Positions 5,922 through 31,391 of a stretch of DNA of 40,122 nt are shown piece after piece. Numbering within the stretch: the first letter of the stretch is position 1; each line of letters opens with the position of its first letter. The notes under the pieces are model-generated. The model was not told where the DNA came from. It worked only from the letters and a program-made list of their open reading frames with translations, and ran no database searches. The position numbers and the translations under genes are program-made. The DNA comes from Alteromonadaceae bacterium (GTDB taxonomy: Bacteria > Pseudomonadota > Gammaproteobacteria > Pseudomonadales > Cellvibrionaceae). The stretch is from the NCBI GenBank assembly GCA_002746115.1, contig NVXL01000032.1, positions 625 to 40,746 of the forward strand, written 5' to 3'.

Positions 5922-5974
5922 CTATTTATCCACTAATTCTATTTAACCACTAAGCCCTACTTAGCCACTAAACG
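5922..5974. repeat. Three tandem 17-18 bp repeats spanning a stop codon
   Basis: Units lie at 5922-5938, 5939-5956 and 5957-5974 and share the 15-base core CTAYTTANCCACTAA (plus strand). The third unit contains the stop codon of the metallophosphoesterase (5970-5968 on the minus strand), so the stop region is repeated twice more downstream, with in-frame or near-frame stops in each copy. The remaining bases to 5812 hold the upstream region of the EF-hand gene. Confidence 0.8.
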
Positions 5975-7092
5975 CAATACGCCCCCACCACCACAGCTCG
6001 CGTGCCGCCATCGTAGCGCCCCTCGCTATCGAAAGGTAAGTTCATCGTAAAATCAGGTACAAATTTAAGATTCGCACGCTGCCTTAAATTAACTTCCCTC
6101 GGCCATAAGCGCGCATAGAGCTTACCCTCTTTAAAGGTTAACTTACCGACGCTATAACCATGCCTACGATCCACCACATGGGTGATATCCCCTCTATCAT
6201 AAACACTGTATCCATCCAAACCCATGAGTGACGAAGATTGATAAATTCGGCTCTTTTTCTCGGATCTATTATTTTTAAAATTCATTGTGCGGCTATCGTG
6301 CATATGGCCGCAAAGGTGAAACGCAAAGTGCTCAGGGTCTAGCATCTCTTGGTAGGCTTTAAGCCCTTTATCGGAAAGCCAATTAGCCGAATGGTGGGTT
6401 AAAAGAAAATTCGTTACTTGCTGAGCAGGCCAGTCATTTACCGATTCACAAACAGCGTCCATCTGACGCTGGTCTAATTCTAAACGCCCTTCATAGTGGC
6501 GGTTATCGAGTTGTAAAAAACTGCTATTTAAGCCTACAACACCAATTTTGTAGTTGCCCAAATTAAAATTGGCGGAGAAATCTCCCGGCAATAAACCTGA
6601 TTTTATCTTCGGTTTTTTAAACACGTCAAAGTTATCCCACCACTGCTGATAATTTTGAAAGGCTTTTTTAACGAGCTGAAAATAAGGCGAGGTGGAGTCT
6701 GCGCTCCAGATTGCCTCTTGTATAGCTGGGTCGTCTTGCCAATGGTCGATAAGCTTACATGCACCTGAGCTTACGAGCTCCGCCGCTGGTCGCTCAAGGT
6801 CATGATTGCCTGGTACCGCAAAAAAATATGGATCAAAAGGCTCAGAACTTAGCGCCTCGACGGCTTGCTTTAATTCTCGTAAGCGGTCATTAAGCGTATT
6901 AAATTGAGATGCGTCCCCATTTTGTACGATATCACCGGTAAAAAATATCGCCTCATAGGAGGTACAAATTGTTTTTTGTACCGTCACAATATCTTCCGCT
7001 AAGGTTTGGCATAATTTTGGCCATAATTCATCACACCCTTGTAAACCCCAATGTAAATCAGTGAGATGTAACCAGCTGAATGTTTGAGTCAT
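5968..7092 (-). CDS. Calcineurin-like metallophosphoesterase
   Basis: The 374-residue protein carries the full metal-binding set of the calcineurin superfamily: D-x-H at residues 12-14 (LTDLHWG), GDIVQNGD at 53-60, GNHDLE at 95-100, then LLTHHSANW and LCGHMHDSR toward the C terminus. These residues bind two metal ions and hydrolyse phosphomono- or phosphodiesters. No signal peptide is seen, so it acts in the cytosol. Its ATG overlaps the stop of the upstream PAS-GGDEF-EAL-REC gene by four bases (ATGA), which implies translational coupling. The substrate is unknown. A cyclic nucleotide or nucleotide product linked to the c-di-GMP enzyme upstream is an attractive guess from context only. The stop codon lies within a tandem repeat. 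Confidence 0.85.
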   Translation of the reverse strand: MTQTFSWLHLTDLHWGLQGCDELWPKLCQTLAEDIVTVQKTICTSYEAIFFTGDIVQNGDASQFNTLNDRLRELKQAVEALSSEPFDPYFFAVPGNHDLERPAAELVSSGACKLIDHWQDDPAIQEAIWSADSTSPYFQLVKKAFQNYQQWWDNFDVFKKPKIKSGLLPGDFSANFNLGNYKIGVVGLNSSFLQLDNRHYEGRLELDQRQMDAVCESVNDWPAQQVTNFLLTHHSANWLSDKGLKAYQEMLDPEHFAFHLCGHMHDSRTMNFKNNRSEKKSRIYQSSSLMGLDGYSVYDRGDITHVVDRRHGYSVGKLTFKEGKLYARLWPREVNLRQRANLKFVPDFTMNLPFDSEGRYDGGTRAVVVGAYCV

Positions 7093-9821
7093 GAGGTGCT
7101 TGCCTTTTTTGCGACTTCTGTCGTGGTTTCGCTTGTGCTTATAACATTGCCACCTTCGACGATCAGTTGGTGGAATTTTTCAGCAAGTTCTTGGCCATCC
7201 ACAGGCTTGGATAGCCAACCGCCTATTGCCGTTGATTGATAACTCGACTGGTAATCGTGATCATCCAGGTTTGATGCAATCACCACGACATGTAAGCTGT
7301 GATTTGGGTGTAATTGCTGAACTTGTTCTAAAAAGCCCAAACCTTCGAGGCCGCCAAAACCCAAATCAAGCGTAAGCGCGCGGTACGCCTTCTTACTTAA
7401 CATCGCCACGCCTTCTTTAGCATTGAGCGCGATATCCACTAAAAAGCCATGAGTTTCCAATTGCCGCTGAATGACATAGCCGGTAATAAGATCATCTTCA
7501 CACACGAGGATATGAATACTATTTTCCGCATTGGTATTCCCGTGTATACGATGCAAGCGCGGGGCTTTTTGTGTGACAAGGTCGGATTTTTGATAGCAGC
7601 TGAAGTGCTCCATAAAAGCATTGCGCCCCTGAGGAATCAATTCAGCAAATAGCTTAGGCGGTACCGGTTTACCAAAATAGTAGCCTTGCATAATCTCGCA
7701 ATGACCTTGGGACAAAAAGTTTAACTGCTCTAAGGTTTCCACCCCTTCAGCAACGACTTCGAGACCCAGTGTTTTTGCGACGGCTAAAATAACATTGATA
7801 ATTTCTTCGTCTTGCTCGTCTTTACCAATGTCCCGAATAAAACTCCGGTCAATTTTTAACACATCCAAGGGCAACCTACGCAGTAATTCAAGTGAGGAGC
7901 TGCCAGTGCCAAAATCATCAATCGCAATTTTGACATTCAGCGCATGTATTTGCTCAAGCTCATCAATCACCTTATCGATGTTCTCCATCACACTGGTTTC
8001 GGTGATTTCAATTTCAATCGCTTCGCCAGGTATTTGGTATTTATCTAGGGCGCCTGCGACTTGCGCGACAAATTGGCCTTTTCCAAGTTGCCGCGCTGAT
8101 ACATTAATCGATACCACCAGTCCCTTATAATCAGGTAACAACATCCACTCGCTCACCTGTCGGCAGGCGCTATCGAGTACCCAAGCACCAATTTCGCCCA
8201 TCAACCCGGACTCTTCCGCATTCGGAATAAACAATGTAGGGCTGACTTCTTTGGCGTTTTTGGGATGCCAGCGTAACAGCGCCTCACAGCCAATCATTTT
8301 TTTGGTGGTGAGCGACACTTTGGGTTGGTAGACTAAGCTAAATTCGTTCTCAGCAATCGCACGCTTTAACATAATATGTATACGGTGCTTCTGTTCAGTC
8401 TCGGCCTGCATGGTCGGCAAATAAACTTTGTAGTTATTCCGCCCTTCTGACTTTGCAACATACATGGCGGTATCAGCCGCTTTGATAAGATCCGATTCAG
8501 TACGTAAGTCATCACTTAAAAGCGCTATACCTATACTAAAACTAATATTCACATGCCATGTTTTAATCGATATTGGGCGCTTCAATGTGTGAATGATTTT
8601 CTCTGCTACTATGGCTGCATCGTGCTCATCAGCCAAATCATAAAGCACTAGCGCAAATTCGTCGCCACCTAAGCGTGCAATCAAATCGCCTTTTCTGACA
8701 CTTTTCCGCAGGGTTTCGGCCGCCGTCACCAACACGCTATCACCGGCATCATGACCAAAGGTATCGTTGATATATTTAAAATGATCCATATCGAGATACA
8801 GTACCGCAAGGGTTTTATCGGAGCGCTTTTGTCGCTCGATAGCGGGCACTAATGTCGCATGAAAATGGGCGCGATTAGACAGGCCGGTTAGCGAATCATT
8901 ATTCGCTAGATGCAATAGCTGCTCTTCTAGCTGCTTTCGCTCAGAGATATTTTGAAACATAATCACCGCGCCCACGCACTCATCTTTAGCGTTGATGGTG
9001 GGTTTGCAGCTAAATTCTATATATATTCTTTCGCCGATGTCGGTAATCCAATAACCGTGGTGCTCCTCTTGGTCATCGTCCGGATCTAATAGCCGAGTGA
9101 TATGGTCTAACTCCCAAGTATCAATTAAATCCTCCGCTGGTAGCTCTGAGGACTCTGCAAGCGCATTTAGCCGGTCAATGTCCTCATCTTTGAGTACAAA
9201 TAGGCTTTGAATTTTACGATTAAGTAAAACTTCATCACTTGAGCCTAATATTTTGCAGGCCTTTGGATTAGCAAAATGGATATATCCATCTAGGGTCACC
9301 CCCAACACACCTTCACCAGCGGAGTTAAGTAAGACTTCCAACTGTAACTTGGAGGCCTCCATCGCTTGCTGCTGCTCTTTAAGCGCGTTGTTAGCCTCAC
9401 ATAGCTGCAGGGTTTTTGTGGTCAGGTTTTTAGCATAGGCTGCAAGTTCGTTATGGTCGTTTTTACGCTCGGATATATCACGCAGAGTGACTAAATAGCC
9501 AGCCCGACCAGACCACTGAATTGGCCGCCGCCTCGCCTCAACAGGCACGTTATCGGACAGCTTATTGCTTATAACAATTTCAGTATCAACGTCCTTCACC
9601 ATAGCTAAGGGTATGCGATGACTAAAGATGTTGCCGCACTCGTCTCCGGTAAGCTCAACGGCTGATTGGTTCACGTAGATCACATGGTTCTCTTGATCAA
9701 GAACGATCATGGCATCGCGGTTCATCTCCACAATGTCACGAAAGCGTTTTTCGCTCTCATCCAATTGTTGTTGCGACGCCATCAGCGCTTGCTGCAGTTG
9801 GCGAACATCGGGCTCGTTCAC
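7089..9821 (-). CDS. PAS-PAS-GGDEF-EAL-REC c-di-GMP signalling protein
   Basis: This cytosolic protein of about 910 residues has two PAS domains (about residues 20-120 and 160-290), then a GGDEF domain with intact GGDEF at 385-389. Its inhibitory site RKGD at 376-379 is five residues upstream, as in active cyclases. The EAL domain starts with EALLRW at 513 and keeps EITE, DDFGTGSSSL, KIDRSF and EGVET, so it looks catalytically complete. A C-terminal receiver follows (HILVCEDD, phosphoacceptor Asp at about 819, LSKPVDG). A receiver at the C terminus is unusual for this class and offers a port for the nearby kinases. I chose the GTG at 9821 because AGGAG lies eight bases upstream; the GTG at 9830 overlaps that site. 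Divergent from the REC-kinase-REC gene. Confidence 0.9.
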   Translation of the reverse strand: MNEPDVRQLQQALMASQQQLDESEKRFRDIVEMNRDAMIVLDQENHVIYVNQSAVELTGDECGNIFSHRIPLAMVKDVDTEIVISNKLSDNVPVEARRRPIQWSGRAGYLVTLRDISERKNDHNELAAYAKNLTTKTLQLCEANNALKEQQQAMEASKLQLEVLLNSAGEGVLGVTLDGYIHFANPKACKILGSSDEVLLNRKIQSLFVLKDEDIDRLNALAESSELPAEDLIDTWELDHITRLLDPDDDQEEHHGYWITDIGERIYIEFSCKPTINAKDECVGAVIMFQNISERKQLEEQLLHLANNDSLTGLSNRAHFHATLVPAIERQKRSDKTLAVLYLDMDHFKYINDTFGHDAGDSVLVTAAETLRKSVRKGDLIARLGGDEFALVLYDLADEHDAAIVAEKIIHTLKRPISIKTWHVNISFSIGIALLSDDLRTESDLIKAADTAMYVAKSEGRNNYKVYLPTMQAETEQKHRIHIMLKRAIAENEFSLVYQPKVSLTTKKMIGCEALLRWHPKNAKEVSPTLFIPNAEESGLMGEIGAWVLDSACRQVSEWMLLPDYKGLVVSINVSARQLGKGQFVAQVAGALDKYQIPGEAIEIEITETSVMENIDKVIDELEQIHALNVKIAIDDFGTGSSSLELLRRLPLDVLKIDRSFIRDIGKDEQDEEIINVILAVAKTLGLEVVAEGVETLEQLNFLSQGHCEIMQGYYFGKPVPPKLFAELIPQGRNAFMEHFSCYQKSDLVTQKAPRLHRIHGNTNAENSIHILVCEDDLITGYVIQRQLETHGFLVDIALNAKEGVAMLSKKAYRALTLDLGFGGLEGLGFLEQVQQLHPNHSLHVVVIASNLDDHDYQSSYQSTAIGGWLSKPVDGQELAEKFHQLIVEGGNVISTSETTTEVAKKASTS

Positions 9822-10154
9822 AGGTGCCACTCCTACAGCAATTAAGTAATTCGATCATTGCGATCACTCTCTTATTTTTAGCATATAATTACTGATACTG
9901 CTGGCTGGCGAGCTCGGAAATTCACTATCATTCCGCACGTCAAGGCTGTAATGTTTCTTTCTTGAGCACTGCGTATTATTCTTGGCAAACTATGGGTATA
10001 CTTACGCAAACTTGAACAACATCATAATGTTAATTATTTTTTTATTATAAAAAACAATTTAATATACCAAACTTACATCATGGTACACGTGCTTATGCCC
10101 TATACTTAATTTATTAAAGAATAAGAGGCTATCGCTTGTTACTATAGGGCATTC
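9822..10154. promoter_or_regulatory. Divergent intergenic control region of the signalling cluster
   Basis: No gene is seen in this AT-rich stretch. It must hold the start signals of both divergent operons. Visible elements are a palindrome AACAT-cata-ATGTT at 10018-10031, and a symmetric A/T tract TTTTTTAT-t-ATAAAAAA at 10038-10054. A candidate minus-10 TATACT lies at 10101-10106 without a good minus-35 at standard spacing. A long inverted repeat, listed separately, reaches the start of the rightward gene. The palindromes and A/T tract are plausible sites for a dimeric regulator or a nucleoid protein. Confidence 0.5.
10095..10152 (+). promoter_or_regulatory. 10-bp inverted repeat covering the ribosome site
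   Basis: ATGCCCTATA (10095-10104) is the exact reverse complement of TATAGGGCAT (10143-10152), with a 38-base spacer. The right arm contains AGGG, the only visible Shine-Dalgarno of the gene starting at 10155. The left arm overlaps a candidate minus-10 (TATACT). If transcription starts upstream of 10095, the RNA could fold and hide the ribosome site. If it starts at about 10112, the repeat could instead act as a two-site DNA operator. Confidence 0.45.
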
Positions 10155-11850: not shown

Positions 11851-14800
11851 ATGTGCACCCAGCCAACGCCGTCTTACCTATGGATGTGCCTGATCATGCC
11901 CATACTGGTAAGCATGATGGCGCCATCGCATGCCCAATCTCCTAATAATACACAGCCCAACAATACACAGCACTACAGTTTCCGGAGTATCGAATCTGAA
12001 GCCATTGATGCGATTGGTGAGGTTTGGGATGTAATTGAAGACCCCGTTGGTTTCATCTGGATTTCGGGCAGTAACGGCTTAGCCCGCTATGACGGTTATG
12101 AGGTAAAGCTGTACGTCCACGATAGTAACAACCCCAAAAGTTTGTCCGATAATACCGTCATTGATATGCTTATCGATCAACAAGGGCAGTTGTGGCTCGC
12201 GACTCAAAAAGGTCTTAACCGCTACCATCGCGAACTCGACAACTTTATCCGCCTCAATGAAGATAAAACTTGGTGCATCACCCAAACCCGCGACGGGGCT
12301 TTTTGGGTCGGCAATTTAAGAACGGGTCTGAAACGCTACTCCTCCGATCTTGGAAAGATAGATCACATCAAGCATGCAAGCCCTAGCGAAACCTTCACAT
12401 ACTCCAACACCAAGGACAGTCTCAGCGACAACACCGTTTTTGCACTGCACGAGGATACACGAGGCAATCTTTGGGTCGGTACAGCCAATGGGCTTAACCG
12501 GTATATGGCGAAAGAAAAAAGTTTCCAACGTTATCGATTTGACGGAAAGGAAGGCAGTATCAGTAATTCTGGTATCAACACGATGTACAACGATAAGCAC
12601 GGAAACCTCTGGATCGGAACCCGCTATGGATTAAACCGTTACGATCATGAACACGATCGATTTACCCGCTATCTGCACGACCCAAACACCGTCAATAGCC
12701 TATCCAATAACTCCGTTAGCAGTATTTTTGAAAACGATCAGGGTCAACTTTGGGTCAGCACTGAAGGTGGTGGTATTAATATTTATCGCCCAGAACAAGA
12801 CGGTTTTGATCACGTCAAAAACGACAACAAACAACTCGACAGCCTTCCTAACGACAAAATCAGACATAGCTTTAAAGACAGTACCGGAAACCTATGGTTT
12901 GGGCATTACCCGAAAGGGCTGACGCTACTCGACCGTTCCGCCTCCTCTTTTATGACCTATTCCAACAATAAAAAAGGTCGAACGATTCTCGCGGATAATA
13001 CCGTGAATGCCGTCAGTGCCAGCCAACAAGGCGGGCTGTGGATAGGCACGGAGAACGGCTTGAATTATTTGGATTTAGATAACGGCAATATTGAGCACTT
13101 TGCACACGATACGAATGACCCTAACAGCCTTTCCACTAACCCCGTGCTTTCGGTGCTCGAAGATAGCCATGAGAATCTCTGGGTGGGCACATGGATGGGC
13201 GGACTGAACCGCTTCGATAAAAAAACACGTACCTTTGCTCGCATGAAAGAAAGCAATGGAAGCTCTGAAGACTCCAAAGGCATCGCAGGCAGTCAAATAT
13301 GGAGTTTATTAGAGGGTAGCGCGGGCGACCTATGGATAGGCACGAGCTTCAGTCTCAACCGCTATAACTCAGCTCGAGACGAGTACACCAGCTACAGGTA
13401 CAGCCCGCAAGTGGATATAGAACGCCCCAGCGGCTTAGTCCGTACTCTATTCGAGGACAGTAAAAACCGCTTGTGGATTGGTACTCAAGACGGCCTTTGG
13501 CAGATGAACCAAGAACAAGAGACCTTTACTCGCTATCACCATCGAGGCGACGATAAACGCTTGATTGAAGCGATGGAAGTTCAAGATATCGCTGAAGATA
13601 AATCTGGACGTATTTGGCTAGCTACGCGTCGTCATGGCTTAGTGGTATTGAATCCAGCACTCACTGACATTCAGCAATACGACACCCGGAACGGATTACC
13701 CTCACTTAACGTGGTCACCATCAAAGAAGATAAGCAAGGTTTTATATGGGCCGCCACTAACCGGGGTATTAGCCGCTTTGACCCCGAAACGGCTAGCGCC
13801 GATAACTATACACAGCGCCATGGTATTGCTGGCGACCTTCATGCACGTAACGCTAGCGCGGTCACTCAATCGGGGCTACTTGTATTCGGCAGTACCGACG
13901 GCTTAACCGTTCTTGATCCAACAAAGCAATATCAAAACGACACTCCCCTGCGCTTACAAATCACCGATTTTCAGATATTAAATAAAAGCGTTCGCATCGG
14001 TGTTCCCAGCTCACCACTGCACCAATCGATAAGCACCACCAAGCAATTACAGCTCACCCCAAATGACTCGGTGTTTTCATTCGCGTTTGCGGCTTTAGAT
14101 TACCAATTACCGCAACAGGTAGACTACGCCTATCGCTTAGAAGGCTTTGATAAAGACTGGCAATTCGTCGGTAATCGCCGTTTAGCGAGCTACACCAACC
14201 TAGACCCGGGGAAGTACGTTTTTCACCTGAAAGCCAGTAACAACAATGATGTGTGGCATCAGCATAAGGCGCCAATCTATATTAAAATTTTACCACCTTG
14301 GTGGTTAAGCTGGTGGGCCTACAGTGTGTACGCACTTATTATCGGCGCATTAATGTGGCTCCTTTTGTATACCCTCGCCAACCGTAGACGCGCCAAAAAT
14401 GAGCACCAGATGAATGTTCAGTTACGCCAAGTCGATAAAATTAAGGATGCCTTTTTAGCCAATACCTCTCACGAATTACGCACACCTCTCAATGGCATTA
14501 TCGGTTTATCTGAATCATTACTTGAAGGCGCCGCTGGAGCTTTACCGGGCAAAGCTAATCATGACCTCGAAATGATTGCGGTTAGTGCCCGACGCTTGGC
14601 TAATTTGGTCAACGATATTTTGGATTTTTCGAAACTCCAAGAACATACGATTCACCTTAAAAAAGAAACTGTCAATATTCATGCATTAACCGAGCTGACC
14701 TTGGGTTTATCACGGCCATTAATCGGTAATAGAAAAATACGCTTAACTAATAAGATCGACCCGAAGCTCACGACGATTAGCGCTGATACGGATCGCGTAC

Positions 14801-16596
14801 AACAAGTACTGTTCAATTTATTAGGTAACGCGATTAAATTTACCGAAGAAGGCAGCATCGAGATACAGGCCTATACCAAAGGCACCATGTTATGGGTCAG
14901 TGTCAAAGATACCGGTATCGGCATCTCTCCCGATAACATCGACCGTGTATTTAATTCCTTTGAGCAAAGCGAAAGCTCCGCTGAACTTGGATACAGCGGA
15001 AGTGGCTTGGGGCTTGCAGTATCTAAGGCCATTGTTGAGTTGCACGGCGGGAGTATTGCACTTAGCTCAACACTCGGTGAGGGGTCTGAGTTTCGCTTTT
15101 CTCTACCCCTGCGGGCTAATAGCGGGGAAACACAGGTAACACAACGCGAAGAAATACTCTTAGAAACACCGGATGATAATACCAGTGCACTGAAACAGAT
15201 CGCCAAACTAAGTGAGCTTCAAACTCAAGGACTAAGTGAACTTCAAACTCAGGGGAATAGTGTTTTAAGTACAGATGAGGCGGACTTTGAACATCAACAA
15301 TACCATATCTTAATTGTCGACGACGATCCGATTAACCGCCAAGTATTACTCAATTTTTTAGGCTTCCATCACTACCGTACCAGTGAATGCGAAAGCGGCG
15401 CTGAAGTATTCGCACTGTTTGAGCAGCAGGATGCCCATGATATTGATTTAATATTGCTCGACGTAATGATGCCAAAAATTTCTGGTTACGAAGTATGTCA
15501 AACGCTACGCCAAAAATACCCGACACATCATTTACCGATTCTATTTTTAACAGCAAAAAATCAACACCGCGACCTAGAAGCCGCGTTTAGTTCTGGCGGC
15601 AATGATTATTTGACCAAGCCAATTCTCAAAAGCGAGCTCTTAGCGCGACTTCAAACACAGCTTGAATTGTCTCAGGTCAGTCGAAAGTTAGAAAATGTTG
15701 TGCTAGAAAAAACACACGACTTACAAAAAAGCCACAACAAACTCCAAACACAACACCTAGAATTGAAGCAAATGCAAAGCCAGTTGGTACAATCTGAAAA
15801 GATGTCTTCTCTGGGTGTATTAATTGCCGGTGTCGGCCACGAACTAAGTAACCCAGCCCACTTCACCAGAGGCTCTGCGGTTAATTTAAGCAAGGCGGTG
15901 GCTGACTTCCATCAATTTCTGATCACCTTGGCGGGGGATAACGCAGATCAAAGCGTGCTTGAGGCTCTATCCGAACGTATTGAAATACTAACCAAGGATC
16001 TAGATATTATCAATGACGGCACCGAGCGTATCCAAGGTATTGTTAACAATTTACGTACTTTTGCACGGCGTGATAGCCCAAAACTGCAAAGAACACAGCT
16101 TAAAAAAGGCCTACTCAGTACCCTGTATCTAGTTGAAAGCAGCTATAAAAGTCTGATAGAGATTGACTGTAAAATCGAAGATAACCCCGCTATCCTGTGC
16201 TCACCAGGCGAAATAAACCAAGTTTTTATGAACCTGATGGTGAATGCCTGCCAAGCAATTGTAGGCGCAGAATCTTTCATAGCTAATAGTGCCGATACTG
16301 CAGCTCACTCATCACACAAAACTTATCGCTTAAGTATTTATATGCGTATTGTCGACCGGAATTTACGCATTAACATCTGCGATAATGGGCCGGGTATTCC
16401 ACCAGAGGTTTTACCTAAAATTTTCGATCCTTTTTTTACCACTAAAAAGGAAGGCGAAGGTACGGGTCTCGGCTTGTCGATCTCGTATCAGATAATACAG
16501 CGTAATCATGGCAGTATTCAGGTCAACTCTGAACTGGGGAAAGGCAGCGATTTCCAAATTGAATTCCCACTTCTAACTGACACAATTAACTTCTAA
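11851..16596 (+). CDS. Giant propeller sensor with two histidine kinase modules
   Basis: The 1581-residue protein has a cleavable signal (cut near SHAQS). About 14 regulator-propeller repeats follow (patterns such as [15 protein letters not shown]), enough for two seven-bladed propellers, then a Y_Y_Y domain ([20 protein letters not shown]). One membrane helix lies at about 821-843. The cytosolic part has HisKA with His874 (SHELRTP), an ATPase ([25 protein letters not shown]) and a receiver with Asp1204 ([11 protein letters not shown]). A coiled coil follows at about 1240-1310, then a second kinase with His1330 (GVGHELSNP), [14 protein letters not shown] and [11 protein letters not shown]. 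The front half resembles the HTCS sensors of Bacteroidetes that detect carbohydrate, but there is no DNA-binding domain. The second kinase is the odd part. Tandem duplications occur at 11941-11970 and 15208-15255. Confidence 0.92.
11941..11970 (+). repeat. 15-bp tandem duplication after the signal peptide
   Basis: cctaataatacacag (11941-11955) is repeated as cccaacaatacacag (11956-11970), encoding the pentapeptide PNNTQ twice just after the predicted signal cleavage site. Confidence 0.7.
15208..15255 (+). repeat. 24-bp tandem duplication in the linker before the receiver
   Basis: Two adjacent 24-base units (15208-15231 and 15232-15255) differ at three positions and encode LSELQTQG followed by LSELQTQGN, in the linker between the first ATPase and the receiver. 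The near identity suggests a recent event. Confidence 0.8.
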
Positions 16597-16646: not shown

Positions 16647-19600
16647 ATGATTATTGCCATACACAAGATACATCGAGTCATGCTGCGAATATCCTTGGCA
16701 CTCTTATCTGTGACATTTTTTTTAGGGGCGGCATCAATAGCCAACGCACAAATACCCGACACACAAACAAGTGCCGCTATCAATTCACAAGCCGACAACA
16801 AAAGCAGTAATAGCGTCACAAGAGATTTACGTGTCCAAGAAATACTAAACAACACCATCAACTTACTTGGCGGCGGCACCTCAGCTGTGCGCGATACTCA
16901 CGGTTTCATGTGGTTTAGCGGTGAAAATGGATTAGCACGTTACGACGGTTATACTGTAAAGCTGTATAAAAATGACAAAGATATCGCCAGCAGTTTAAGC
17001 TCAAATTTTATTTACACCTTGTTTGTCGACCAACACGAACAACTTTGGGTCGGGACGCGCAATGGCCTCAATCGCTATAACCCACTGCTAGATAACTTTA
17101 CCCACTTTCACCCACCAAGCTCACAACAAACCGATAATAGCGTCATGGTAGTTGCGGGTATCGCCCAAGGCGTCGATAACAGTTTATGGCTAAGCACCTT
17201 TGATGGTTTATACCAGTTCTCAATCTCAACTGGCAATTTTGCGGCTTACAAGCCGCCTTCTGAAATTCACCTTCCCATCTCAACAACGCCAAATCGCTCT
17301 TGGGCTCGCCTCGCACATCGAGACTCGCGAGGCTTAATCTGGTTTACCAATCAGCACGCTGGCATATTCAGCTTTAACCCTGTAAATCAAATTTTTAAGT
17401 ACTACCCGCTAACAGCTGGCACGAATACGCCGCTTGAAAAAGCAGGAACGGTCAGCGTGACTGGAGTGGACAGCGATAGCCAGGATACCATTTGGTTAAT
17501 CACCCAGAACGGTCGTATATTCCGAAAAACGACATCAATGGACGGCTTCACGCTATATGAAAAAATAACCCAGCAGCGACAAATAGCGACCAGTAAAAGT
17601 GGCTCTTTCAGCATTAACAACTTAATCGTCGACAACAATGATAATCTTTGGTATGCCGCGGATGGCGACGGCGGCGGTGTTGCTGTCGTTGACCCTAAGC
17701 GGCATCAATTTAAACTATTCCGCCATGACCCCGACGATAACCGTTCAATCCCCAGTAACCGCACCCGCTATGTGCACCAAGACACGCAGGGGAATATGTG
17801 GTTTGGATTTTTCCCTAGCGGTGTCGCGATGCAAAATAATTACGCATATGCGTTTAATAATTATCGTCACCTACAAACAGATGACAACAGCTTAACAAGT
17901 AATTTAATTCTCTCAGTGGTAGAAGGGCAAGACGAATCATTATGGGTGGGCACCGAATATGGACTCAACCATATCGATCGAAAATCCGGAGAGGTCAAGC
18001 ATTACTTACAGTCTCTTGGTGAACCCAAAAAACTGCAATCCAACTCCATTCTTAGCCTACTGATCGACTCTGAAAACGTTCTATGGGTAGGCACCTGGCG
18101 TGGGGGCCTTAGCGTTTTAAACCCCGGAAGTGAAGATTTTGAGCACCTCCCGAAGATGCACCGCAAGCACCCCCTTGTCGATGCGCAAATATGGGGAATA
18201 CTAGAAGATTCCTTACGCAACGTTTGGCTGGCAACCAACTTGGGTTTATATCGATACCGCCGTATCAACCAACAGTTTGAGCCAATCGCTTTCGATACGA
18301 ATAGCAAAAACCACGACCAAACTCAAATTGCTTTATTTGAGGACCGTCGCCACCGCATATGGGTGGGCGGCGTGCAGAGCTTGCAGGTCTTGGATATTCA
18401 TAGTGGCGAGCGCCTCACAACCAGTCAGCACGAAAATATTCAGCTGCTCAGTGGCGAGCGAATTAACCTCATTACACAATCACAAGACGGCTATATCTGG
18501 GTAGGTACCAATCAAGGTTTATATGCCTTCAATGGCAATATGCAGCAAGAGCACTTTTATCAAAAAAGCCATGGCTTACCTGACGATACTATTGTGGGTA
18601 TTATTGAAGACCCCACCACCAATACCCTCTGGCTTAGCACTGGCAATGGCCTAGCACGCCTAAACCGCGACGACGATACTTTCACAATTTATGATCAGCG
18701 CCATGGATTGCCCGGCAACCAGTTTAATCGCCCGGCATTTACTAAGACAAAACGCGGTGAATTTGTATTTGGCAGCACCAAAGGTCTGACCTTATTTAAG
18801 CCACAGAATATTTATACTAATACCGCGTTGCCGTCAGTATTTATTACGGATTTTCAAATATTCAATAAATCCGTTCAGCCAGATACCATTACCGGGCCGC
18901 TGCACCAAGTGGTTGGGTTATCGGAAGATATTACTTTAAGTTATGATTTATCCGTATTTTCTTTTGAGTTTTCAGCCCTTAATTATCATATCTCTGAGCT
19001 AAACTCTTACGCCTACCGTTTGGACGGTTTCGATAAAGAATGGAATTATATCGACAAACGTCACAATGTCACTTATACCAATTTAGACCCAGGTAAATAC
19101 CGCTTTCGGGTAAAAGCCGCTAATAGCGATGGCTTTTGGAGTAAACAAGACACCCAATTAAACGTCATCATTTTACCGCCCTGGTGGCAAACTTGGTGGG
19201 CGTACACTTTATATACTTCGATAGTGCTTATTTTACTGGCTTGGTTTATTTATACCTTAAAGCAACGGCTGGCTTATAGCCGCGCCTTACTCCAGCAAGA
19301 GCGTGTTGTCGTTAAAAAATTACAACAGGTTGACAAGCTAAAAGATGAATTTCTCACCAACACCTCACACGAGTTACGCACGCCTTTACACGGAATTATA
19401 GGTTTGTCGGAATCTCTAATAGAGGGCGCAGGCGGTGCGCTGAGCGAGACGGCCAAGAAAAATCTTACCATGATAGTCAATAGCGGTAGGCGACTCAGTC
19501 ATTTGGTTGACGATATTTTGGATTTTTCTAAAATGCGCAATCAAGTACTTAAACTCAACCGACAAGCGATTGACCTTCATGCCGTAGCCGATATTGTACT

Positions 19601-21422
19601 TAAACTGTCCGAACCATTAATTGGCAATAAGAAATTGGTGCTTGAAAACACGCTTGCTGAAAATCTTCCCTATGCTTTTGCCGACGAAAATCGCTTGCAA
19701 CAGGTTCTGCACAATTTAATTGGCAATGCGATTAAGTTTACCGACCAAGGCTCGGTGACGCTTAAAGCGGAAGTCAAAGGTGAACACCTGCATGTTAGTG
19801 TGCAGGACACGGGCATCGGCATCGCCGAAGATAAAACCTCTCGTGTGTTCGAGCTATTCGAGCAAGTTGAAGGCTCCACAGAACGCTTATACAGCGGCAC
19901 AGGCTTAGGGCTTGCCGTCTCACGTCAGCTCGTACAATTACACGGTGGCGATATTACCGTCTCGTCTAAGCTGGGCGTGGGTTCAACCTTTACCTTCACG
20001 CTCCCCTTAGCTGGGGCGAGCCAGGAGGGAGAAATCCCGACACTCAACGGAGGTGATTATAATCACCACCTCAAGCCTAGTACCGCCATGCTGGAGGCAT
20101 TAACCAGTACGACTGAAGTCGTCAGTGGGGAGGTTCGTCAACGCAGCAGTGCGCGTATGCATATTTTGGTGGTCGATGATGACCCGGTCAACCGACAGGT
20201 TTTAATTAACCACTTAAGTTTGCACGACTACCTCGTCACTCAAGTCGCCAGCGGAATTGAGGCGGTTGATTTAATAGAGAGTGATCAAGTCTTCGACTTA
20301 GTATTGCTCGATATTATGATGCCGCGCATGTCTGGGTTTAAGGTGTGCGAGCATATCCGTCAAATTTACGCGCCTCAAGAGCTGCCGGTTATCTTCCTTA
20401 CGGCCAATAAATTAGAATCCGATTTAACGCTTGGATTCCAAGTCGGCGGTAACGATTTTATTCATAAGCCGGTCAGTAAAACCGAGCTATTATCCCGCGT
20501 TCAATTGCACAGTGAGCTACTGGAGGTAAACCGTAACCTCGAAAGCGCGGTACGCCAACGCACACACAGCTTGGAAACCGAGCACAAACGCTTAAAGCAA
20601 ACCCAGTCTCAACTGGTGGAATCGGAAAAAATGGCGGGTTTAGCTCACCTCGTCGCCGGTTTAGCTCACGAGTTTAATAATCCCTTGAACTATACCAATC
20701 TTGGTAATTTTAACCTTGAGCGAGACGTGCGTGAATTTCAGGAGTTTGTTACAGGCTTACTCGAAGATACACCAGAAGAAGACATTGTCGAAGCATTTGA
20801 ACAGCGCTTTAAGAATTTGCAGGATAGTGTCAATATCATGGCTGAAGGCACCACCCGTATTGAGCGTATTGTCGGGGATTTACAAGCTTTTGCTGATGCA
20901 AAAAGTGAAGAATTTAGCAACATTACCGTCGAAGAATGTATTCGACCTTGCATTAATCTCACTAAAGCCAACTACGGTACTTATGTTGACGTGAGCTTTG
21001 AACTTGAGCCCGGTATTGCCCTCAACTGCCATTACGCTCAAATGACTCAAGCATTTATGAATATCATGATAAATGCCTGCCAAGCCATTATACTCAACCA
21101 AGAATCAAAGCAACTGACAGGTAAAGGACTTATTGAGATCGTCGCAAAACGCCAAGCGGATCAAGTACTTATCGAGTTTTGTGACAACGGTGTCGGTATG
21201 ACAGAAGATACCCGCAGGCGTATGTTTGACCCCTTCTTTACGACCCGCCCCATCGGTGAAGGCACCGGTTTAGGCCTGTCGATTGTTTACGGTTTGTTAC
21301 AACAAAATGGCGGCCACATTGAAGCCGAATCAACAGAAGGGGAAGGCACCTGTATTCATATTACTTTGCCACTGAAAGAGTATGACAACGACGCGGTGCC
21401 GGTGTTGTCTAGAAAGCAATAA
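16647..21422 (+). CDS. Second giant propeller sensor with two kinase modules
   Basis: This 1591-residue paralogue of the preceding protein has the same order of parts: signal peptide (cut near ANAQI), about 14 propeller repeats, Y_Y_Y ([12 protein letters not shown]), a membrane helix at about 852-873, HisKA with His908 ([10 protein letters not shown]), ATPase ([24 protein letters not shown]), and receiver with Asp1222 ([11 protein letters not shown]). The coiled coil and second kinase follow, with His1341 (GLAHEFNNP), INACQAI, DNGVGM and [13 protein letters not shown]. The propeller part has diverged more than the kinase part, as expected if the pair arose by duplication and then took up different ligands. 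No clear Shine-Dalgarno precedes the ATG at 16647. The in-frame ATG at 16680 would still leave a signal peptide. The upstream gene ends 50 bases before, so the two are probably one transcript. Confidence 0.92.
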
Positions 21423-25540: not shown

Positions 25541-26887
25541 TTGAACACATACGCCTTGCACTTAGCCCTAATAAATCAAACCCAGCGGGTAAGTGCCTCA
25601 TGCCATATTTTCAATTCGAAAGGCAGGATAATCCTAAAAAGTGGCGCGGAGTTTGACCACGAAGCAGCCAAAGTGTTATCGGAAAATGCGCTCCCTAAAT
25701 CGCTAGAGTATTTTGTCAAAATTGAAAATGAATTCGATGCAGATCAACTGACCTCTGTTTTCAAAGGCTACCTTCGGCTCGACCCTAGTTATTGTGAACT
25801 CTACGAGCAGCAAGAAATTGACGAGGATATTGAACGCTGCTGCGCAAATATATGTCGCTTAGATATTATCCCTCAACGCTTAACCGCTTTATCAATTCTG
25901 TTCCCTCAGGTATTCGATCAAGCCTTATTTAGCGCTTGGATGATACTGACCTTGTTGCAACGTAGTGGGGCTGAAGATAAGGCTAAGCAAGCCGCCTTCT
26001 CCGCCGCCCTCTGCCAAAACATCGGCTACATGGATATAGCACCAGACATCGTGCGTAAAGAGGATGAGTTTAGCGACGAAGATGAACGCCTTATTCAATC
26101 CCACCCCAATTTAGGCTACCAAATTCTCAGCACAATCACGGGTATCTCAAAAGAGACCGCACGAGCGGTACAAGAGCATCATGAATGCATGGATGGCAGT
26201 GGTTTTCCGGCTCGAAAAGTCGGTAAGCAACTGTCTTGGGCAGGGCAAACAATCAACCTACTCGATAGTATTCACGCAATCTACCAAAGACATTTTAAAC
26301 CGAGAAAACTCACGCTGCGTGATACCGTTCCGATTATCCAAATGAACATGCTGGCAAGGCACGGCTCTTCGGTATCGGATTTAATTGCATTTTTAGAGCC
26401 TGGTAGTCGCACCGAGCAATGCACGGTATCGGAAGAAGACGTACCTAACTTTGTGAAGCAACTTAAGCATCAGCATAAAAACGTTTTACATTTTATCGAG
26501 ATCACCCAAACATTTTTAGCCGACGTGGGGGTTCGCCACGATAACGCGCGTCTGTATGCGATTCAAAATATTGCGTTACATATTTACGCCTCTATGAGCC
26601 AGGCGGAAATGATTAACGAAGGATACATGCGCTGGCTCGACCAAGTAATTACCAACAAGCTCACTCATGCGTATCGTGAACTTGAAGATGTATTTTTAAT
26701 GATGCAAGAACTACTATTTCACATTGAACGCTTTCGCTCTCAAATTTACCCCATGGAAAAAAGAAACACCAACCCTAAACTGCGAGAACCTTTAGCAAAG
26801 CTAGTGTCCCAACTAGAAGAGTTACCCAAGCCCGAAAGTCAAAATTACACACCGCTTGTGATTACTAACAAACCCGAAAAAACCTAG
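25541..26887 (+). CDS. HD-GYP-related protein lacking the HD catalytic pair
   Basis: The 448-residue protein has a middle region laid out like an HD-GYP c-di-GMP phosphodiesterase, but the metal-binding His-Asp pair is replaced by Gln159-Asn160 (ALCQNIGYMDIAPDIV). The HHE motif is kept at 213-215, the DG that follows is present, and GYP reads GFP at 221-223 (MDGSGFP). Loss of HD should abolish the usual chemistry, so it may bind the nucleotide or act as an adaptor. The N-terminal 110 residues and the C-terminal 130 residues (helical) are not recognised. The TTG at 25541 is supported by GAGG eight bases upstream. It sits between the molybdenum enzyme and malic enzyme, with no clear operon partner. 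Confidence 0.78.
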   Translation: MNTYALHLALINQTQRVSASCHIFNSKGRIILKSGAEFDHEAAKVLSENALPKSLEYFVKIENEFDADQLTSVFKGYLRLDPSYCELYEQQEIDEDIERCCANICRLDIIPQRLTALSILFPQVFDQALFSAWMILTLLQRSGAEDKAKQAAFSAALCQNIGYMDIAPDIVRKEDEFSDEDERLIQSHPNLGYQILSTITGISKETARAVQEHHECMDGSGFPARKVGKQLSWAGQTINLLDSIHAIYQRHFKPRKLTLRDTVPIIQMNMLARHGSSVSDLIAFLEPGSRTEQCTVSEEDVPNFVKQLKHQHKNVLHFIEITQTFLADVGVRHDNARLYAIQNIALHIYASMSQAEMINEGYMRWLDQVITNKLTHAYRELEDVFLMMQELLFHIERFRSQIYPMEKRNTNPKLREPLAKLVSQLEELPKPESQNYTPLVITNKPEKT

Positions 26888-28675: not shown

Positions 28676-28723
28676 TTTAGATCTACTTATGTTTAGCTCT
28701 GCTTATATTTAGATGTGCTTTTT
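28676..28723. repeat. 16-bp tandem repeats spanning a stop codon
   Basis: Three units on the plus strand are TTTAGATCTACTTATG (28676-28691), TTTAGCTCTGCTTATA (28692-28707) and TTTAGATGTGCTTTTT (28708-28723). The third contains the TAA of the leftward GGDEF-EAL gene (28711-28709), so the stop and the last codons are echoed twice downstream. Confidence 0.75.
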
Positions 28724-31213
28724 AAGTTTTACTAAGCGCTCAGGTAAAACATAGCTTTTTGCAAAATTCTCACTCGTATCTGGAAATCCGAAAAGATACC
28801 CCTGAACATAATCGCAACCCAGTGACTTTACAATTCTCGCCTGCGCTTCGGTTTCAATGCCTTCTACAATGGTTTTGAAACCCAGCTTTTTATTCATCGC
28901 CAATATTGCACTAACGATGTCCTGATCACTCTGATCATGCTCGATGTCGATAATAAAACTACGATCGATTTTAATCACATCGACATTAAAGCGCTTAAGA
29001 TATGCAAGCGACGAGTAGCCGGTGCCAAAATCATCAATGGCTAAGCGGAATCCATTTTTTGCAAGGCGTTTAAGCGCCGAGTCAGCATCTAAAAATTCGG
29101 ATAAAAAAGTCCCCTCAGTGATTTCAAGCTGTATTGACTCCGGCGCCACACCAAATTCATTCACAAGATCAATAAATTCCTGAACACAGGTATCTTTCTT
29201 AAGCTGATGAGGCGAGACGTTAATCGACATATATTGCAAAGGTGAGTCGGGTGCGCTCTGTGCCCAAAGGTGCCACTGTTTAATCGCCGTGCGATTTATC
29301 CAACATCCCAGTTCATATATCAGACCAATCTCTTCAACAATGGGAATAAACTCCATCGGTGAGATCATTTTACCATCCGCACCGCGCCAACGGATTAATG
29401 CCTCGCAACCCAAAACTTGTTGATCAGACAAATCAACAATGGGCTGATAATATAACTCAAACTCCTGATTTTTAATGGCATTGCGAATTAATGAAATAAA
29501 ATTAAACTTTTTATGTAAGCGTGCCGTCATCTCGGAGCTGTAAGCAAGCACACTGTCCGCGTCAAATGATTTAGCATGATGCATTGCAAGGCCGGCGTGT
29601 TGTAAAAGCGCCGTTGCAGTCTCGCCGCCTTTCGGGTAGACGTTAACACCAATAGATGCGCTGATATTAATGACGAACCCGCTCCCCAACAGTAAGGGCT
29701 CAACTATGCCATGCAATATCAGGCTAGCACGAAATTTAACGGCTTCCTCAGACTTAGCAACGTCCGTACTTTGGAGCTGAGGTAGGATAATTGAGAATTC
29801 ATCTCCCCCTGTTCTCGCAGCAAAACCGCAATCCGATATTCTCTGTAATAAGCGGCTGGAGATCTCCTTTAAAACTTTGTCACCAATTTCATAACCATAG
29901 TTTTCGTTAATATCTTTAAAGCGATCTAAACCAACCATTAGTACGCCGACGGTATAGCCATAAGTATCGGCTCTGGCAATCTCTTCGCTAAGGCGCGAAT
30001 AAAAACCGGCTCGGCTAGCCAAGCCGGTTAACGGGTCGGTGTAGGCTAACTCACGCAGCTTTTTCTCCGCCAAAGCCTCTTTGGTAACATCCCGAGAAAC
30101 CCCCACAATCCGAGAAATTTTGCCACTGAGATTGCGAATCGGCCGTGCTTGGCTGCTAACAAAGCGCACGGTATTATCAGGCCAGATAAGTCGATACTCG
30201 ATGCTACCGCTGTTTTTACCTTTGAGTAGCTCTTTTAACCGGGAGAAAACCAAGCGTCTATCTTCAGGATGAAGTGAGCGCCGCCACGCCCCCATTGGCG
30301 TTTGCGTTTTGTCTTCCCCGTAACCGTGAATATCGAACATTTTCGAATCCCAGATCATCAAGGCATCTGTTGGCGACCAATCCCAAACACCAAGCTCGGC
30401 GCTATCGATGGCGACTTGAAAACGATCTGATAAGGACTGTATGGCATCCTTGGTACGCCGCTCCTCAGTCACGTCAAAAAAGGATGTTAATACGCCTTGC
30501 CGTTCGCCCGTTTTTGCACAGTAAACAAACTCGGTATTCACCTTTAACCAAGTGTAGCGATCAATGACATTGGCAATGCCGAGTACGACATTGTGCTGCG
30601 TTTTCCCGGTTCTGAGTGCTGTGACGCCGGGATGGTCGCGATAGGAGAGCGGTACACCTTTGGCGTCAACAACACGCCAAGGTAAGTTATCACGGTTCAC
30701 CTTGCGGATCGCAGATTGGTTCATCCCTAAAATACGCTGGGCGGTATTATTCGCCAGCACGATGACTTCATTATTGGATTGAAACAACACACCAACGCCG
30801 ATCTGCTTAAACAACATCTCGTTGATATTAGTGTCCTTAAGCAACTCCTCTTCCGTGGAGAGTGATTCTGCTACTTTGCGATAACACAATTCGACATGAT
30901 CATCATCTAAGTCTGGGTGCTCAGCTTTTAACTCATAAGTAAGGCTTTTACGCTCGCCGAAAATCACAAAGCGACGGCTAAAGCAGTCGCGCTTCCCGGC
31001 CAAAACGCTACGAATACCGTCATAAATAGGCGCTATTTCGGTATCGTGAAAGGTATGGATATCCATATAGCTATGCCCGATCAGGCACTCTTCACCTTGC
31101 CAACCCAGAGTGTCCTCTGAGCGAGATAAATTCAAATGTACATCGCAAATAATACCGGCTTTATCAAGAATAACCGTATTACGAGGTGTATTTTTTACAA
31201 CAGATAACCCCAA
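28709..31213 (-). CDS. PAS-GGDEF-EAL c-di-GMP signalling protein
   Basis: This 834-residue protein has N-terminal PAS-type sensor domains (about residues 20-250), then a further PAS/PAC pair (about 260-380, WRRSLHPEDRR and IVGVSRDVT). The GGDEF domain has TGGDEF at 468-473 but no RxxD inhibitory site at the normal spacing. The EAL domain starts EALIRW at 604 and keeps INVSPHQL, EITEG, DDFGTGYSSL, KIDRSF, EGIET and GYLFGFP, so both enzyme halves look intact. No membrane segment is seen. GAGG lies seven bases before the TTG at 31213, so I prefer that start; the GTG at 31219 is only one base from this site. It lies downstream of pspF on the same strand, 178 bases away, probably with its own promoter. 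Confidence 0.9.
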   Translation of the reverse strand: MGLSVVKNTPRNTVILDKAGIICDVHLNLSRSEDTLGWQGEECLIGHSYMDIHTFHDTEIAPIYDGIRSVLAGKRDCFSRRFVIFGERKSLTYELKAEHPDLDDDHVELCYRKVAESLSTEEELLKDTNINEMLFKQIGVGVLFQSNNEVIVLANNTAQRILGMNQSAIRKVNRDNLPWRVVDAKGVPLSYRDHPGVTALRTGKTQHNVVLGIANVIDRYTWLKVNTEFVYCAKTGERQGVLTSFFDVTEERRTKDAIQSLSDRFQVAIDSAELGVWDWSPTDALMIWDSKMFDIHGYGEDKTQTPMGAWRRSLHPEDRRLVFSRLKELLKGKNSGSIEYRLIWPDNTVRFVSSQARPIRNLSGKISRIVGVSRDVTKEALAEKKLRELAYTDPLTGLASRAGFYSRLSEEIARADTYGYTVGVLMVGLDRFKDINENYGYEIGDKVLKEISSRLLQRISDCGFAARTGGDEFSIILPQLQSTDVAKSEEAVKFRASLILHGIVEPLLLGSGFVINISASIGVNVYPKGGETATALLQHAGLAMHHAKSFDADSVLAYSSEMTARLHKKFNFISLIRNAIKNQEFELYYQPIVDLSDQQVLGCEALIRWRGADGKMISPMEFIPIVEEIGLIYELGCWINRTAIKQWHLWAQSAPDSPLQYMSINVSPHQLKKDTCVQEFIDLVNEFGVAPESIQLEITEGTFLSEFLDADSALKRLAKNGFRLAIDDFGTGYSSLAYLKRFNVDVIKIDRSFIIDIEHDQSDQDIVSAILAMNKKLGFKTIVEGIETEAQARIVKSLGCDYVQGYLFGFPDTSENFAKSYVLPERLVKLKKHI

Positions 31214-31391
31214 AATCACGCCTCTTCAGACAATTCAATTATTACCTATAAGTTTAGAGGTCTGTCCGAGGAGTGCCAGTCAGCATTCATACGAATGTTG
31301 ACTAAAAATTTTAAAACCTATATTAAGTTCTGTTGTATGGGCGTATTTATAGGATAAGTTGTTGCTTTGTATGCCAAAAACTGTTTAGCGA

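Follow-up and report, generated by a model that had tools for sequence, protein, structure and literature searches.

Dead HD-GYP proteins are already known as a kind, and the portions of the literature drawn on here describe DvhD, PA2572, HnoD, NosR and Bd1817 as such. In PmGH, D222 bridges two irons, and the substitutions H221A, D222A and K225A each essentially abolish activity; Y285A causes no substantial loss (PMC4159591). Among Pseudomonas aeruginosa proteins, PA2572, which has a YN-GYP signature, was found to be inactive, and the same source reports PA4781 as active (PMC3774798). DvhD of Desulfovibrio vulgaris has SQ in place of HD, and Met and Asn in place of HH, and is described as binding c-di-GMP without metal and without hydrolysing it (PMC13090378; PDB 9rbz, 9rc0). 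HnoD of Shewanella oneidensis is reported to be a dead HD-GYP protein that suppresses the EAL enzyme HnoB (PMC6335343). In Leptospira, four of five HD-GYP proteins were considered inactive, with c-di-GMP binding also unlikely (PMC12943098), so that, on this account, a dead HD-GYP protein need not be a receptor.

In this study, we analyzed a gene for an HD-GYP-like protein in a stretch of 40,122 nucleotides, the whole of which we call the window. Searches of open-licence PubMed Central for the names QN-GYP, QN-GFP, RD-GYP, HE-GYP and HN-GYP found no on-topic paper, and papers matching HD-GYP together with Cellvibrio mention HD-GYP once or twice each in the text retrieved. Our results support a model, which we hold at about even confidence, in which the window protein is a catalytically dead HD-GYP pseudo-enzyme (a pseudo-phosphodiesterase) that would act through a C-terminal helical bundle as a c-di-GMP-responsive or protein-binding regulator.

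Results

The gene lies at positions 25541–26887 of the forward strand, as do all of its features given below, and encodes 448 residues in an intact, open reading frame. It begins with TTG, with GAGG ahead of the start, and this start is credible by homology, since ATG-started relatives align from the same residue onward. In the predicted model, residues 1–66 (25541–25738) form an N-terminal region of short strands and helices, and residues 298–426 (26432–26818) form a C-terminal helical bundle that has no Pfam match in the window protein. Between them, Pfam HD_5 matches residues 134–269 (25940–26347) with an E-value of 4.3e-19, above the cut-off, and Pfam HD also matches but falls below its cut-off. 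No PAS domain and no receiver domain (Response_reg) was found by Pfam in the window protein or in any of the 24 members of alignment A1. Among the described dead proteins, PA2572 carries a receiver domain. Across the same 24 members, HD_5 matched in 24, HD in 23 and HDOD weakly in 14, and five further families matched in one member each, so that the only Pfam matches found in more than one member were to HD-type models. PADLOC returned no match to an anti-phage system with an E-value up to 0.01 for either the window protein or its orthologue in genome G040. The best NCBIfam match was to the NosR family (NF053512), with 57.3 bits over residues 138–285, far under the cut-off of 400 bits. One NosR is described as a degenerate HD-GYP protein (HG-GTP), although, unlike the window protein, it carries a receiver domain (PMC12570481).

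The active site has lost its central residues. A phmmer comparison with solved structures aligned Q159, N160 and Y163 with H221, D222 and K225 of PmGH (4mcw), HH with HH, and GFP with GYP. The His-Asp dyad is thus replaced by Q159-N160 (26015–26020, codons CAA AAC), as the initial annotation had read it, and the lysine of HDxGK is replaced by Y163 (26027–26029, TAC), a further catalytic replacement that the annotation had not listed. A sequencing error behind QN is unlikely, because neither CAA nor AAC resembles a codon for His or Asp closely enough to coincide with one, and the frame is clean. In a MAFFT alignment with canonical HD-GYP proteins, Q127 stands at the position of the first metal-ligand histidine of PmGH, H189, at a spacing of 32 residues from the dyad, the same as in PmGH. 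In RpfG, two of the eight ligands, including H189, are missing, yet it is thought in the same source more likely to be a two-metal protein (PMC4159591); on this precedent, the loss of the H189 equivalent across a family need not kill activity.

Other parts of the pocket are present. H188 (26102–26104), the histidine of HPxxG, corresponds to the PmGH metal ligand H250, H213-H214-E215 (26177–26185) to H276-H277 and the glutamate that follows, and D242 (26264–26266) to D305. The HHExxDGxGYP loop reads HHECMDGSGFP, with G221-F222-P223 (26201–26209) standing for GYP. The annotation was right that HHE and the fold are kept and that GYP has become GFP, as the alignment and the predicted model bear out, but GFP is no mark of degeneration: PA4781, reported to be active, has GFP at the same place, and Y285A had no substantial effect in PmGH. 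Residues 250–255 (RHFKPR), which we matched by hand count to the PmGH c-di-GMP contacts R314 and K317, vary across the family. Compared with a catalytic HD-GYP phosphodiesterase, then, the dyad and the lysine are absent, whereas H188, H213, H214, D242, the loop and the fold are present.

These retained residues bear on whether the protein could still be an enzyme, working at the three-histidine site as a one-metal phosphodiesterase or phosphatase, with c-di-GMP, pGpG or some other phosphate ester as substrate. The survival of H188, H213, H214 and D242 would fit such an activity. However, all three of the PmGH positions at which a single alanine is reported to abolish activity (PMC4159591), and the first histidine as well, are replaced in the window protein, and PA2572, with YN, is described as inactive (PMC3774798). 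We therefore regard continued catalysis as very improbable. With the dyad and the lysine lost, hydrolysis should be abolished, and the window protein likely does not hydrolyse c-di-GMP, judging from its residues.

The fold is confidently predicted to be that of an HD-GYP domain. An AlphaFold2 model built from 22 sequences, an alignment that also took in four loci (L065, L066, L067 and L080) outside the 118-member set described below, had a mean pLDDT of 90.1 and a pTM of 0.89, with residues 434–448 below 50. Within residues 66–289, its best solved match was PmGH (4mcw; Z 18.6 over 181 residues, 2.6 Å), with DvhD (Z 17.0, 180 residues, 3.3 Å) and PA4781 (Z 16.8, 185 residues, 3.2 Å) tied behind it; Bd1817 heads the Foldseek list, close to PmGH. 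No viral relative by fold was found with an E-value up to 0.001. The C-terminal residues 286–433, modelled alone, reached a pLDDT of 92.0 and had no fold match in the PDB with an E-value up to 0.001. For this bundle the best VIA rows had Z of at most 9.2, for example the iron-binding protein 6n63 (Z 9.1, 123 residues, 3.2 Å), and we rejected them as an identity for the bundle, their scores lying within the chance range for helical bundles.

The window protein belongs to an HD-GYP-like family whose full-length members occur in Cellvibrionaceae and in other gammaproteobacteria, with the N-terminal, HD and C-terminal parts all matching its profile. In the taxonomic family of the window, 96 of 144 genomes matched at E-values up to 0.001, many of them in the common HD domain only, and in an order-wide sample 177 of 390 genomes matched alignment A1 at E-values up to 1e-20, ordinary HD-GYP proteins included. 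From 215 loci we kept 118 distinct full-length members (more than 190 bits, with the profile match starting at 35 or before and ending at 400 or after), leaving out fragments and HD-only proteins. A motif scan of genome contigs showed full-length members at no fewer than 17 of the 80 loci listed (L048–L064), three being copies of proteins already in the set. Two family members, L148 (genome G019) and L163 (G015), are each interrupted by a single in-frame TAG and seem to be broken copies.

Among the 118 members, residues 159–160 are HD in 105, RD in six and ME in two, with QN, QG, QD, HE and HN found once each. QN is thus confined to the window protein and occurs in none of the other 117. The lysine of HDxGK is present in one member of 118, and the first metal-ligand histidine in five, being absent from 113; with both mostly missing across the family, the HD-bearing members differ from PmGH too. 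In an IQ-TREE quick tree of the 118 rows, the window protein fell in a group of 14 rows (SH-aLRT 91) with the G040 protein, a paralogue from its own genome and the proteins of genus g28, the order of branches within this group being without resolution. On the same tree, a parsimony minimum of 11 changes separates HD from not-HD, a count that gives no direction of change; from the HD superfamily, we infer that HD is ancestral in the family. Both full-length members found in genome G122 (L025 and L129; wider stretches L219 and L220) lack the dyad, one having RD and the other, more decayed, having QG with HRE and no D242.

The G040 protein had the best E-value among the other 143 genomes, with 38% identity over residues 1–437, and is a syntenic orthologue, a malic enzyme gene (65% identical) lying downstream in both loci. 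It retains HD (HDLGF), as does the own-genome paralogue (L043, contig C251; HDLGL), whose gene is itself convergent with an adjoining canonical HD-GYP gene (HDIGK). The initial annotation had held that orthologues with an intact HD would mean a simple loss here; since 105 of the 118 members, the syntenic orthologue included, have HD, QN is not conserved, and by that standard the change counts as a lineage-specific loss. In the aligned sequences, QN is a lineage-specific change in a family that was already non-canonical.

In G040, a convergent gene for a receiver-EAL protein lies between the HD-GYP-like gene and the malic enzyme gene. Also around this orthologue (L040, 6132–12173) are genes for a PAS-GGDEF protein, a phosphotransferase-like kinase and a DUF520 protein, which we take to be of the YajQ family. 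With the G040 receiver-EAL protein as query, 19 of 144 genomes matched at E-values up to 1e-60, with 12 candidates scored per listed genome. The gene stands tail-to-tail with a family member in all eight genomes that have a close copy, namely G040, the source of the query, and seven of g28 (57–66% identity), so that seven of the eight come from one genus and the pairing spans two genera; in four genomes with a 45–50% identical gene, it does not adjoin a family member. Read by eye in the alignment, the receiver aspartate and the catalytic residues of the EAL domain are apparently kept. In seven of the eight copies (L040, L042, L045 and L222–L226), the EAL motif itself reads ECL, with EAL in L222. 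At the window locus no receiver-EAL gene was found, the nearest homologue in the same genome being 36% identical and on another contig. We also looked for a receiver-EAL remnant in the gap before the malic enzyme gene, which is shorter than 100 bp, and rejected this idea: with E below 1e-15, tblastn matched nothing in the window other than the two GGDEF-EAL proteins. The joint absence of the dyad and of the receiver-EAL partner is a single case, seen in the window only.

This neighbour raises the possibility that the protein is an allosteric regulator in the manner of HnoD, which would restrain or activate, by protein contact alone and with no nucleotide bound, an EAL phosphodiesterase or a GGDEF cyclase. 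The tail-to-tail pairing in G040 and the seven g28 genomes, with catalytic residues apparently kept in the neighbour, and the precedent of HnoD and HnoB as described in PMC6335343 both favour it. On the other hand, the gene pair is convergent and forms no operon, HnoD is described as a response regulator whereas the window protein lacks such a domain architecture, having no receiver, the window locus is missing the partner, and the pocket histidines and loop are conserved although pure docking would not need them. We consider docking without a nucleotide possible, if on the unlikely side.

The annotation had further set the protein in a window containing two GGDEF-EAL proteins and a phosphoesterase. 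These genes are present, the former at 28709–31219 and 7089–9830 and the latter at 5968–7092, but we found no evidence linking the dead site to them, given distance, intervening genes and strand: the genes at 7089–9830 and 5968–7092 are separated from it by roughly 16–19 kb that hold unrelated genes, and that at 28709–31219 lies beyond the malic enzyme gene on the other strand. The reverse-strand gene at 7089–9830 encodes a PAS-GGDEF-EAL protein with a C-terminal receiver domain and overlaps by 4 bases the calcineurin-like phosphoesterase gene at 5968–7092, also on the reverse strand. Two tandem genes on the forward strand, at 11851–16596 and 16647–21422, encode hybrid two-component kinases of very large size, with a smaller kinase with two receivers ahead of them; the first has a Reg_prop/Y_Y_Y sensor, and the second was judged from common kinase matches only.

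Finally, we asked how far the window protein departs from its family outside the dyad; these counts rest on related rows and are not independent. At 16 columns conserved in at least 90% of the other 117 members, it differs only at 159, 160 and 222, and at 33 columns conserved in at least 80%, it differs at eight. Its departures at the 90% level are thus confined to active-site columns, which argues against general decay. At the 21 columns conserved in at least 85%, with the dyad excluded, it differs at one, which is the family median, and the QG member at six. Of the 105 HD members, 104 retain the full set of H188, H213 and H214 and 103 retain D242; of the 13 dyad-less members, 12 retain the three histidines and 10 retain D242. 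F222 occurs in four of 13 dyad-less and five of 105 HD members, partly by descent. Because they survive in 12 of the 13 dyad-less proteins, the alignment suggests that the three histidines have a role independent of the dyad, for example in holding one remaining metal or in the structure.

A recent loss of function would make the window protein a redundant relic on its way out, with the HD-bearing paralogue (contig C251) as backup. HD in both the syntenic orthologue and that paralogue, the restriction of QN to a single member, the missing receiver-EAL neighbour and an end branch of 0.75, compared with a median of 0.24, all point in this direction, and the long branch could reflect relaxed constraint. 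The nearest end branches in its group are of like length, however (0.50 for G040, 0.57 for the own-genome paralogue and 0.80 for the sister of the latter), so that the window branch is no outlier there. An intact frame and a departure no greater than the family median outside the dyad also argue against a relic, and we consider this explanation quite unlikely.

Discussion

Taken with the alternatives weighed above, the reading to which we give about even confidence is that of a dead HD-GYP regulator. The pocket would be retained as the HHExxDGxG(Y/F)P loop and a set of three histidines that could still bind a single metal, N160 serving as a neutral ligand. In this pocket, c-di-GMP or pGpG might be bound without being cut, and the bound or unbound state would be passed to the C-terminal helical bundle. 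The bundle, in turn, may dock a partner. This could be an EAL phosphodiesterase, by analogy with HnoD and HnoB. We infer both the binding of a ligand and the existence of a partner for the window protein. The initial proposal of an HD-GYP protein turned into a non-catalytic receptor or scaffold therefore survives in part: the dyad is gone, several residues of the pocket remain within an HD-GYP fold, and dead HD-GYP proteins have precedents, but QN is not a conserved feature.

Each of the described systems resembles the window protein in some respects and differs in others, as far as the cited sources describe them. Like DvhD, the window protein has an HD-GYP fold with the dyad replaced, by QN where DvhD has SQ. 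DvhD, however, is a membrane PAS/HD-GYP receptor that has lost the HH pair, whereas the window protein keeps HH, has no PAS domain in Pfam and has an additional C-terminal helical bundle. Because DvhD binds c-di-GMP without the HH pair, retention of HH in the window protein is not needed for binding. PA2572, reported as inactive, also has a replaced dyad with Asn at the second position, although GYP is kept. Bd1817 of Bdellovibrio (PDB 3tm8, 3tmc; PMC4159591) shares the fold and is described as having no phosphodiesterase activity, but its HD dyad holds a two-iron centre, and it lacks the tyrosine and is lid-closed. HnoD and HnoB offer the likeness of a dead HD-GYP protein tied to an EAL-domain response regulator, as the G040 and g28 loci suggest for this family; HnoD differs in being itself a response regulator, whereas the window protein has neither a receiver domain nor a receiver-EAL neighbour.

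A broader and more speculative model, which we think doubtful, is that the family as a whole consists of sensors derived from HD-GYP proteins. In this model, the hydrolytic part of the metal centre would have been dismantled at least 11 times while a three-histidine, single-metal site was kept to hold nucleotide, and a new helical output domain would be coupled to a receiver-EAL phosphodiesterase. The window protein would then be an end state, without the dyad and without the partner.

In summary, our work adds a dyad-less HD-GYP protein to a family in which Pfam sees the HD part only and in which the dyad has changed repeatedly. The natural series HD, RD, QD, HN, HE, ME, QG and QN may help to separate the residues needed for cutting c-di-GMP from those needed for binding it. 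The series may also help to show whether dead HD-GYP proteins control receiver-EAL enzymes more generally.
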